Positions 1,657 to 45,748 of a stretch of DNA of 49,547 nucleotides are shown one piece after another. Position 1 is the first letter of the stretch, and the number at the start of each line of letters is the position of its first letter. The stretch comes from Okeania sp. SIO3B5 (GTDB taxonomy: Bacteria > Cyanobacteriota > Cyanobacteriia > Cyanobacteriales > Microcoleaceae), in assembly GCF_010692555.1 (NCBI RefSeq), contig NZ_JAAHHG010000002.1, positions 17,899 through 67,445 of the forward strand. The letters are read 5' to 3'. A program made the translations under genes and the position numbers. The notes beneath the pieces are model-generated. The model was not told the DNA's origin. It made no database searches and saw only the letters and a program-made list of their open reading frames with translations.

Positions 1657-4600
1657 ATGAATAAAACTTTTATTAAACGACTCTTGATTTTGATAATTGT
1701 TGGTTTCTGTTTATTGATTTCTGCATCTAAGATTTATGCTCAAAATAATCAGAACTTAAAACATATCAATAATCCTGTTATTTTAACGGATGAAAATACA
1801 AAATATCCTTTGGGATTACATTTAGAAATATTTGAAGATCAGACTAGGGAATTAACTATTGAAGATGTTGTCAATCAAGAATTTACTCCTAGTGATAAAA
1901 ATATCCCCAATTTAGGTATCAAAACATCAGCAATCTGGGTTCGTTTTCGAGTCAAAAATCAAGCAAGTTTAACACAAAAATGGATATTAAGTTTCAATGA
2001 TACTCGTACAGGTACAGTAGATTTTTATTTTCCTCAAGGAGATAAAGAAGGATTTAAAACCATTAAAACAGGCAGATTTTTACCTTTTAGCACTAGAGAA
2101 TTTAACCATCGTTTTTTTATCTTCAGTTTGCCTTTTACCGACAATAACGAAAAAACTATTTATCTGCGCTTAACTTCAAAAGCAGGTTTAGCTATTTCCT
2201 TAAATATTTATTCCTTAGAAACATTTTTCCAGGAGGATCAATATCAACTTTTATTTTTAGGAGTAGGTTATGGAATTATTGTAATAATGATTGGTTATAA
2301 CTTGTTTTTATTTATTTCTTTAAAAGACATAAGTTATCTGCATTTTGTCTTGTTTACTACAGGTTATTTATGTTTTAAATTGTGTCGAGAGGAAATAGGA
2401 CATCAATTATTTTGGTATGACTTTCCTAGCTATTTTGAGATTCAATCATTCGGAGTCTTATCAATGTATTTTTTCTTGATAAAATTCACCCAATCTTTCT
2501 TAAAAACTAAAAAATATCTTCCTAAAATAGATAGATTTTTATTTATTATATCTTTAGTTCTAGTTATAGTAATTATTATATCCATGCCAACAAAATGGAA
2601 TAATATTATCGTAATTTTTAATGGCATAGTTATTAGTGTCATAATATTAACAACTGCTTTGATCAGATGGAGACAAGGATATAAGCCAAGTAAATATTTT
2701 TTATTAGCTATGTTTGCCCCTCTTTTAGGAATAATTATTCGTTGTTTTAGTGCCCTTGGTTTTATACCTTATGGTTTTTATCTACAGAACCGTTCAAATT
2801 TCGTTTTTAGTTTATCGGTCTTATTATTTTCCTTTGCTTTAGCAGATAGAATTAATCTGATTCAAGATGAAAGAGAGAAAGCACAAAATGAAGCATTGAA
2901 AAATGCTGAACTTAATCAAAAATTAATTCAAGAACAAAATATTGTTTTAGAAAAAAAAGTTGGAGAAAGAACGGAATAATTATCCATTGCTAAAGAAAAA
3001 GCGGAAGTTGCCAATCAAGCAAAAAGCAATTTTATCGCTAATATGAGTCATGAACTACGCACTCCTTTAAATGCTATTTTAGGCTTTTCTCAAATTATGA
3101 TGCGCTCTCAAAGTTTATCTCAAGAACAGAAAGAAAATACAACTATTATCAATAAAAGTGGCAACTATTTATTAACCTTAATTAATAATATTTTAGATTT
3201 ATCTAAAATTGAAGCCGGGAAAATGACAATCTATCCCCATAATTTTGACTTTTATTCTTTCTTAAACGAACTGGAAGACTTATTACATATAACCGCCGAA
3301 AATAAAGGATTAACATTAATTTTTGACTACCAGAATGATGTACCTCAATATATCTATACTGACGAAACTAAGCTCCGTCAAGTCTTAATTAATTTAATCA
3401 ATAATGGGATTAAATTTACATCTGAAGGGGGTGTGAGTGTCACAGTTGTGAGTCAAAAAGAATCTCCCCTTAATCCTTCCTTGGAAAGGCAAAAAGAATC
3501 CCTCCTTAATCCTTCCTTGGAAAGGCAAAAAGAATCCCCCCTTAACTCCTCCTTAGAAAGTGGGGAAAGTTCTGGAAAAAATCCATTCTTAGAAAGGGGG
3601 GAAAGTTCTGGAAAAAATCCATTTTTAGAAAGGGGGGAAAGTTCTGGAAAAAATCCATTCTTAGAAAGGGGGGAAAATTCTGGAAAAAATCCATTCTTAG
3701 AAAGGGGGATTTTTTCCTCCCTTAATCCTTCCTTAGAAAGGCAAAAAGAATCCCTCCTTAATTCTCCCTTAGAAATTCAAAAAGAATCCCCCCTTAATTC
3801 CTCCTTAGAAAGTGGGGAAAGTTCTGGAAAAAATCCATTTTTAGAAAGGGGGATTTTTTCCTCCCTTAATCCTTCCTTGGAAAGGCAAAAAGAATCCCTC
3901 CTTAATTCTCCCTTAGAAAGGCAAAAAGAATCCCCCCTTAATCCTTCCTTAGAAAGGGGGAAAAATCATGGAAAAAATCCATTCTTAGAAAGGGGGAAAA
4001 ATCATGGAAAAGCCACAATTATTTTTGAAGTCAGAGATACAGGAGCAGGAATAGCTGAAGCTGAAATGAGCAAATTATTTGAAGCATTTGCCCAAACAGA
4101 AACAGGCAAAAATAGTCAAGAAGGAACAGGATTAGGATTACCCATTAGTCGTAAATTTGTACAGTTAATGGGAGGAGATATTACCGTCAAAAGTAAAGTA
4201 GGAAAAGGTACAACTTTTCGATTTGATATCCAAGTTAAAATTGCCAATAAAACAAATATAAAAACTCAAGAAAATCCACGTCATGTCATAGCTTTAAAGC
4301 CCAATCAACCCCGTTATAGAATCTTAATAGTGGATGACCGTTCTACAAATCGTTTATTATTAATTAAATTATTACAACCATTAGGATTTGAATTAAAAGA
4401 AGCAGAAAATGGAAAACAAGCAATAGAAATTTGGTCAGAATGGCAACCTCATTTAATTTGGATGGATATGAGAATGCCAGTAATGGATGGTTACGAAGCC
4501 ACCCAAATAATTAAAGGCACAACCAAAGGAAATGCCACAGCAATAATTGCTTTAACAGCAAGGGTATTAGAAGAAGAAAAGTCAATTATTTTATCAGCAG

Positions 4601-4938
4601 GATGTGATGATTTTGTCAGAAAACCATTCCGAGAAGCCATGATTTTTGAAACTATGAAAAAGCATTTAGGAGTGGAATATATTTATGAATTAGAAAGTCC
4701 AGATAAAACTCCCAGTGAATTGCCAAGTTTAACAGTAGGAGATTTACAGAAAATGCCGATAGAATGGTTAGAAGAACTGTATGATGCAGCCAAAGCTTTA
4801 GATGATGATAGGATTTTGGAATTAATAGAACAAATTCCGGTTGAAGAATCTTTATTAGCGGAAAAATTAACTAATTTGGTGGATAATTTTCAATTTAAGA
4901 CCATTAGACAATTAATTGAATCTCTTAAATCAGGATAA
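1657..4938 (+). pseudogene. 7TMR-DISM hybrid histidine kinase, interrupted by an in-frame TAA
   Basis: Two frames in the same register (1657-2979 and 2980-4938) form one gene. Signal peptide about residues 1-28, an extracellular sensory domain (7TMR-DISMED2-like) about 35-185, seven membrane segments about 195-400, then a coiled-coil linker. TAA at 2977-2979 follows VGERTE and is directly followed in frame by [21 protein letters not shown] and the H-box MSHELRTP (ATG 3043). The second part has DHp, N-box ([12 protein letters not shown]), G1 (DTGAGI), G2 (GTGLGL) and a C-terminal receiver with WMDMRMP. A CAA-to-TAA change (ERTEQLS is common) would explain the break. Without readthrough, the sensor and kinase halves would be separate; ATG 3043 could restart the soluble kinase but cuts into the DHp helix. 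A 185-codon repeat block sits between N-box and G1. Confidence 0.85.
3457..4011 (+). repeat. 36-bp coding tandem repeat inside the kinase ATPase domain (about 15.4 units)
   Basis: 555 bases encode fifteen 12-residue units plus five residues. Unit types are [48 protein letters not shown] and [12 protein letters not shown]; the order of types itself repeats, so larger blocks were duplicated. Each unit carries a C-rich run (CCCCTTAAT) followed by a G-rich run (TTAGAAAGGGGG), giving hairpin potential like intergenic cyanobacterial repeats. The period is a multiple of three and the frame is preserved throughout. It lies between the N-box and the G1 box. Confidence 0.95.
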
Positions 4939-44134: not shown

Positions 44135-45748
44135 TCCATATTTTTTGATGTTAGCAAGCAACAGATTAAAAATAATGTTGAGACGGCCCATATTCCAATT
44201 ATTTTCTTGACCGTATTCTCAGATACGGAAAAAATAACCACCGGCTTATCCCTCGAAGCCGTAGACTACATAACCAAGCTCTTTCACGAAGCAGAACTAT
44301 TAGCACAGGTGCGTACCCATTTGCAGCTACACCAGTTAACCCAGTTTGCGGTTGACAAGACTGCATTAGAAATCTTCTGTCATATGATCAACGAACTCCA
44401 GACCCCGCTTAACTCCATTTTGGCTTTATCTAAAGCCTTGCAGGATGAAGTCTTTGGTCCATTGACTGAGGAGCAACTCAAATGTATGAAAACAGTTGAA
44501 CAAAGTGGCAACAATTTACTAAACCTAATTAACGATATTATACACCAAACCCAGTTTGCAGTTGACAAGGCTGCATTAGGAATCTTCTGTGATATGAGCA
44601 ACGACCTCCGGACTTCGCTTAATGTCATTTTGGGTTTTTCTGAAGCTTTGCAAGAGGAAATCTTTGGTCCATTGACAGACAAGCAACTCAAATGTCTGAA
44701 AACAATTGAACGAAATGGTTACCATTTACTCGACCTAATCAACGATATTCTGGATGTCTGCAAAATTGAGTCGGGACAAGTTGAACTAGATTTAAAGGTA
44801 ACTAATATTGGTAATTTGTGTGAGTCGAGTCTGGCATTTGTCAAACAACAAGCGGTCAAAAAAAGAATTTCTCTCAATACGACTATCCCCCCCCATCCCC
44901 TAAACCTGCTCATTGATAAGCGACGCATCCTTCAGAGCTTGGGCAAGTTACTCAATAACGCGGTGAAGTTCACTCCTGAAGGTGGATGTGTTACTCTGGA
45001 GATGAGTTGTCATAGCCAGAACAAAAATGGGCAAACATTAGACTCGCAAGAGCCATCTGAGAAAGTCAAGAATCCAAATCAATTAGTGTGGGAGTCTGGC
45101 CTATTGACGGCTGAAAACTACATCAAAATCAGTGTAACGGATACTGGAATTGGCATTGCTCCAGAACAAATCACCAAATTGTTCAAACCTTTTTCCATAA
45201 TTGATAGTGCCCTAAATCGAAAATATAACGGAACAGGTTTAGGATTAGTTCTTATTAAACAAATAACTGAGCTTCACGGGGGAACGGTTAGTTTAACGAG
45301 CGAAGTCGGTGTGGGTAGCTGTTTTAGTATCAACCTTCCCTATAATCCTGATTTGTCTCTATCTTCTGTTCAACCAAAAGATTTACCTCTGATCTTGTTA
45401 GCTGAAGACAACGAAAGGAATATTAGTGTAATGGTTTTCTACTTAAAGGCTCGTGGCTATCGCCTAATTGTGGCTAAAAATGGGCTTGATGCAATTCAAT
45501 TGGCACAAACTCACCATCCAGACTTAATTTTAATGGATATTCAAATGCCAGAGTTAGATGGTCTCGAATCTATTCAGCGGATTCGTCAAGACTCAAACCT
45601 TAAAAACATTCCCATTGTTGCTCTAACAGCTTTTGCCATGGCAGACGATCAAGAACGTTGTCTAGCGGCTGGTGCTAACCTGTATATCAGTAAACCAGTT
45701 AGGCTCAAACAGTTAGTCTCGTCCATTCAAAGGTTGTTAGCTCAATAG
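44135..45748 (+). pseudogene. degenerate hybrid histidine kinase with duplicated, His-less DHp domain
   Basis: An open frame from a TTG at 44207 encodes 513 residues; the same frame upstream to the stop at 44132-44134 still resembles a receiver domain (FFDVSKQQIKNNVETAHIPIIFLT), so the N-terminal receiver is truncated and has lost its phospho-acceptor region, and TKPF has become TKLF. Residues 45-114 and 115-184 are a 70-residue direct duplication of the DHp domain. The H-boxes read MINELQTPLN and MSNDLRTSLN: Asn (N62, N132) replaces the phospho-accepting His in both. ATPase (LLNNAVKFTPEGG, DTGIGI, GTGLGLVLIKQI) and the C-terminal receiver (LILMDIQMPELDG) look intact. Could be a pseudokinase. 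No histidine is available for autophosphorylation at the usual site. Confidence 0.8.

Follow-up and report, generated by a model that had tools for sequence, protein, structure and literature searches.

How does a block of tandem repeats come to lie in frame inside the ATP-binding domain of a conserved sensor kinase, and where did its unit come from? These questions are raised by a hybrid histidine kinase gene (1657-4938) on a 49,547-nucleotide stretch of the genome of Okeania sp. SIO3B5, a filamentous marine cyanobacterium, referred to here as the window; the gene and its parts lie on the forward strand. The array consists of 15 units of 36 bp and an 18-nt half unit (3454-4011, delimited with TRF and a unit list). 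These 558 nt, read in register, lie between two boxes of the HATPase_c domain, the N-box at 3373-3420 and the G1 box (DTGAGI) at 4036-4053. The best identity at a lag of 36 nt, taken over 540 nt, reaches 0.74 in the window vs 0.33-0.35 in 20 windows resampled from a first-order Markov model. The analysis thus confirms a fifteen-unit in-frame repeat between the two boxes, as an earlier note had read from the sequence; of the boundaries given there, 3457-4011, the end stands and the start is one codon late. The spacing from GGV to DTG is 200 aa in this gene and 27 aa in relatives that have no repeat, which corrects the 185 residues previously said to have been added to a net gain of about 173. 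Each unit is made of six variable residues, which come in three types (QKESPL-, GESSGK- and GIFSSL-like), ahead of an N..LE. core (e.g. NPSLER). Four units together make a higher-order block with a period of 144 bp (TRF, 91% matches): the first copy of this block (GIFSSL, QKESLL, QKESPL and GESSGK types) occupies 3706-3849 and the block restarts at 3850.

The host gene, whose extent is based on open reading frames, translation, Pfam matches and full-length open orthologs, encodes a 7TMR-DISM extracellular and 7TM sensor (7TMR-DISMED2 and 7TM, 1819-2850; PF07696, E 5e-36, and PF07695, E 3e-40), a HisKA domain (3019-3219; PF00512, E 2.6e-22), the HATPase_c domain with the array (C-terminal half 4009-4236; PF02518, E 2e-25) and a receiver domain (REC, 4321-4653; PF00072, E 9e-23). 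All the domains of a hybrid kinase are therefore present, and open full-length orthologs exist, whereas the window copy is broken by an in-frame TAA (2977-2979), evident from comparing its translation with the orthologs and absent from the earlier note. This stop, which stands in place of the Glu, Gln or Lys codon of the orthologs (ERTE-E/Q/K-LS), sits between 7TM and HisKA, upstream of the array, and separates sensor from kinase. The first ATG past it, at 3043, begins at the H-box, and a separate start there would miss the front of HisKA. The HisKA/N-box part nevertheless evolves under strong constraint, with an omega of 0.08-0.12 between the window gene and its orthologs and 0.03-0.11 among the other orthologs. 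Given this conserved core, the TAA is recent, tolerated or a sequence error, and the protein of the window gene is probably split or decaying.

For the gene in the window genome (11.06 Mb in 789 contigs), the nearest named orthologs are those of Okeania, at 82-85% identity over the sensor, and related kinases show 0, 1, 2 or many units at the same loop. Four kinases have no repeat, with 27 aa from GGV to DTG (G002:C8, G001:C206-51k, G004:C22-413k and G003:C235-95k, named by genome and contig). One, G016:C145, has a loop of 29 aa containing a single intact palindrome, ATCCCCCCTTAATCCCCCCTTTGAAAGGGGGG. Three have two units and a loop of 44 aa (G001:C206-62k, G004:C22-424k and G003:C235-98k), and other relatives carry longer arrays of up to about 10 units and up to 147 aa, compared to the 15 units of the window gene. 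Among the orthologs with a DISM sensor the copy numbers are 0, 1, 5-6, 8-9 and 15, all taken from draft assemblies and possibly collapsed. Arrays are also carried by several paralogs with other sensor domains. Since the insertion at the loop is common to several Okeania paralogs and to G016, the seed is older than the window gene copy. The suggestion that the expansion is very recent accordingly holds for copy number, which is young and lineage-specific, and fails for the insertion itself. The 27-aa loops and the 29-aa loop differ throughout, which indicates that the seed took the place of a variable loop, or overwrote it, and was not a clean insertion; comparing no-repeat and one-unit loops reveals no target duplication. 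We infer that the series runs from 0 through 1 and 2 to many. A tree of the kinase core, in which 10 of 20 inner branches are open, leaves the order of the one-unit state and the arrays undecided, and the one-unit state could instead be a contraction.

Did each gene grow its own array, or did gene conversion spread arrays among the paralogs? In favour of conversion, the kinase cores of paralogs are homogenised within genomes: the O. hirsuta kinases G002:C8 and G002:C55 differ at 1 of 393 nt on one side of the loop and at 1 of 507 nt on the other. The same two genes, however, have wholly different loops, one with no repeat and the other with about four units and a stop. Array variants moreover track orthology and not genome. 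NLPLER is found only in the DISM orthologs of G003 and G004; NPFLER occurs six times, all in the window gene, and NLSLER mainly in kinases of the Reg_prop type. We consider it unlikely that conversion rather than separate growth distributed the arrays, although it may have moved the first seed. In a Reg_prop-type kinase of O. hirsuta (L097), the array starts with an in-frame TAA.

Separate growth of the arrays raises the question of what selection acts on them. The earlier note took the uninterrupted frame as a possible sign of selection. A stop-free unit of 36 bp keeps the frame whenever it is duplicated, and pooled pN/pS within arrays is 0.71 (pairs inside one array being non-independent), so the open frame says little about selection. 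The unit sequence is weakly constrained, far less than the kinase core, where omega over the HisKA/N-box part of the array-bearing genes is 0.03-0.12. In most or many units the two remaining forward frames are closed by stops, and a frameshift would therefore truncate the kinase. Ordinary selection against truncation would be in line with the frame being kept in all the arrays of relatives that were read, one O. hirsuta copy having a stop but no frameshift. We read this pattern as tolerance combined with such selection, and not as selection for the peptide. A different role would be that of a contingency locus, with selection on changes in copy number because the kinase is tuned or switched by the length of its array. 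Copy number does vary among the DISM orthologs while the kinase core is under strong purifying selection, but the unit is nearly unconstrained, its changes come in multiples of three and hence switch no frame, repeat-free kinases coexist in the same genomes, and stops interrupt both the window copy and an O. hirsuta paralog. Such a role appears quite improbable to us, and tolerance under selection against truncation is retained below.

The origin of the unit is to be sought outside the kinases. The pattern CCCCTTN{2,5}AAGGGG has 559 matches in the window genome vs 1 for the reversed control pattern, and from 0 to 614 per genome across the order. In a 665-kb sample, 400 kb of which came from contigs picked because earlier searches had named them, 40 of 49 hairpins lie outside ORFs of at least 200 aa and 9 inside, while these ORFs cover 59% of the sample; hairpins with an upstream tag are inside such ORFs in 4 of 19 cases. 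The 559 hairpins are of at least two kinds, a short AT-flanked hairpin, which in the sample lies only between genes, and a tagged palindrome that is often arranged as inverted pairs. These counts agree with the proposal that the unit looks like a dispersed, mostly intergenic repeat. The link to the kinase array is provided by the G016 palindrome: allowing up to 3 mismatches, it has matches in 5 of 6 genomes searched, also outside the kinase family, and the reversed control has none. Dispersed matches to the intact 32-bp form, with 1-3 mismatches, are found in G016, G000, G001, G003 and G004, in unrelated genes as well as in spacers. The palindrome is thus present both between genes and in other genes, and is not confined to this gene family. 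Among the ORFs with in-frame coding copies are those for GcvP, NACHT-like NTPases and a serine/threonine-kinase-like ATPase. It is very unlikely that the repeat is instead an old coding segment specific to the kinases whose C-run and G-run resemble intergenic palindromes by chance, for although a query with the translated array has strong matches in seven genomes, all of them within the kinase family, and a short QKSPLSNP loop in a more distant paralog resembles QKESPLNP, the intact G016 palindrome is matched by dispersed copies in five genomes.

The copies in NACHT-like NTPases lie near one site in the five genomes giving hits; in these genes (L006-L008, L137-L140, L145 and L146) the in-frame palindrome, sometimes in several copies, stands a few residues past Walker A in every genome where it was found. 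GcvP was considered as a case of clean insertion and rejected: in a comparison with a solved bacterial enzyme (4lgl), the element takes up a variable spacer and adds little net length. Seven copies of a related unit (NPPLPPFERGGF) are in frame in a CobB-like cobyrinate synthase of G016 (L058).

Taken with the series at the loop, the dispersed copies make it likely that the array began as a dispersed palindrome in a kinase loop, grew by tandem duplication of a decaying copy, and has been tolerated with selection against truncation. The seed would have been a palindrome of about 32 bp, ATCCCCCCTTAATCCCCCCTTNNNAAGGGGGG, that came to lie, in frame, within a variable beta-hairpin loop of the HATPase domain at a time when the present Okeania paralogs did not yet have their arrays; in the frame used it would encode ESPLNPPFERG. 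This copy would then have lost perfect hairpin pairing, and the linker together with half of the copy would have become the 36-bp unit. Predicted folding energies bear on this step: the G016 seed folds at -17.8 kcal/mol vs -4 to -12 kcal/mol for the derived units, as growth from a decaying copy, and not repeated insertion, would predict. The weakly folding units, together with the private unit variants of individual genes, fit one early seed followed by separate tandem duplication. Slippage or unequal recombination may have multiplied the unit in each gene and lineage, with selection acting mainly against truncation, so that the frame would be kept while the unit sequence drifts.

From the general layout of the Bergerat fold, the turn joining the two strands that flank the array would lie at the end of the sheet distal to the nucleotide and the lid; the earlier suggestion of a loop near the ATP lid is not supported. 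The array would form a disordered, exposed loop there that the kinase tolerates. Long loops do occur at this position, as 67 residues separate the matching points in the solved chain 7p8e. AlphaFold models with and without the array, built from shallow alignments, are poor (mean pLDDT 35.7 and 43.2).

In-frame palindromes are already known. Rickettsia palindromic elements (RPE) are dispersed palindromes that also occur in frame inside unrelated protein genes (reviewed in PMC10969869), and intragenic REPs have been reported in several species (PMC3733652). The Okeania palindrome is likewise an intragenic palindromic repeat in the general sense, being dispersed and in frame in unrelated genes. 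By size, on which this comparison is based, it differs from an RPE, which is about 150 bp long and encodes a conserved peptide, whereas the Okeania element is about 32 bp and became a tandem array. With REPs and REPINs it shares a palindrome of 20-40 bp, a mostly intergenic location with some copies in ORFs and frequent inverted pairs; unlike them, it has no GTAG or CGTC tag at the palindrome end in the copies printed, as judged by eye, and it grew as a 36-bp tandem in a coding loop. The array also resembles a coding VNTR or minisatellite, with an in-frame tandem unit, private variants, higher-order blocks and a copy number that differs between close relatives. It differs from these in that its origin from a dispersed palindrome can be traced. 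A search of a literature collection on the unit letters and on in-frame palindromes of cyanobacteria returned no paper on the Okeania element. What is new is that the passage from a palindrome to a coding tandem array can be followed within one family of kinases.

Mobilisation by a RAYT was considered and is not supported. The window genome has four RAYT-like genes (L193, L196, L197 and L198; Y1_Tnp, PF01797), each accompanied by a short palindrome or repeat that differs from gene to gene and is GATTCGCGAATCGCCCCTAC-like in one case; only L193 has a single CCCCTT-type hairpin nearby, and none of the four could be linked to the palindrome as its mobilising enzyme.

The series of 0, 1, 2 and many units at one site in related genes offers a readable path from a dispersed palindrome to a coding tandem repeat. 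It thus makes an old question testable in one kinase family, with repeat-free natural controls in the same genome: do selfish repeats that are translated serve proteins as raw material, or are they noise that is tolerated? A more speculative idea, to which we give little credence at present, is that a mobile palindrome lands and expands repeatedly in the kinase hairpin, giving it a loop of variable length by which signalling is tuned. If true, sensor kinases would draw regulatory variation from a genome-wide repeat.

Other repeats are present in the window. A second hybrid kinase (44207-45748) contains a tandem duplication of a HisKA segment, with another residue in place of the phospho-accepting histidine (INELQTP, SNDLRTS). 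A 220-bp unit is repeated 2.3 times with 98% matches at 1-500, and many short heptanucleotide tandem repeats (e.g. CCCTATT, TTAATAA and AGGGAAT) are scattered over 6589-46556.
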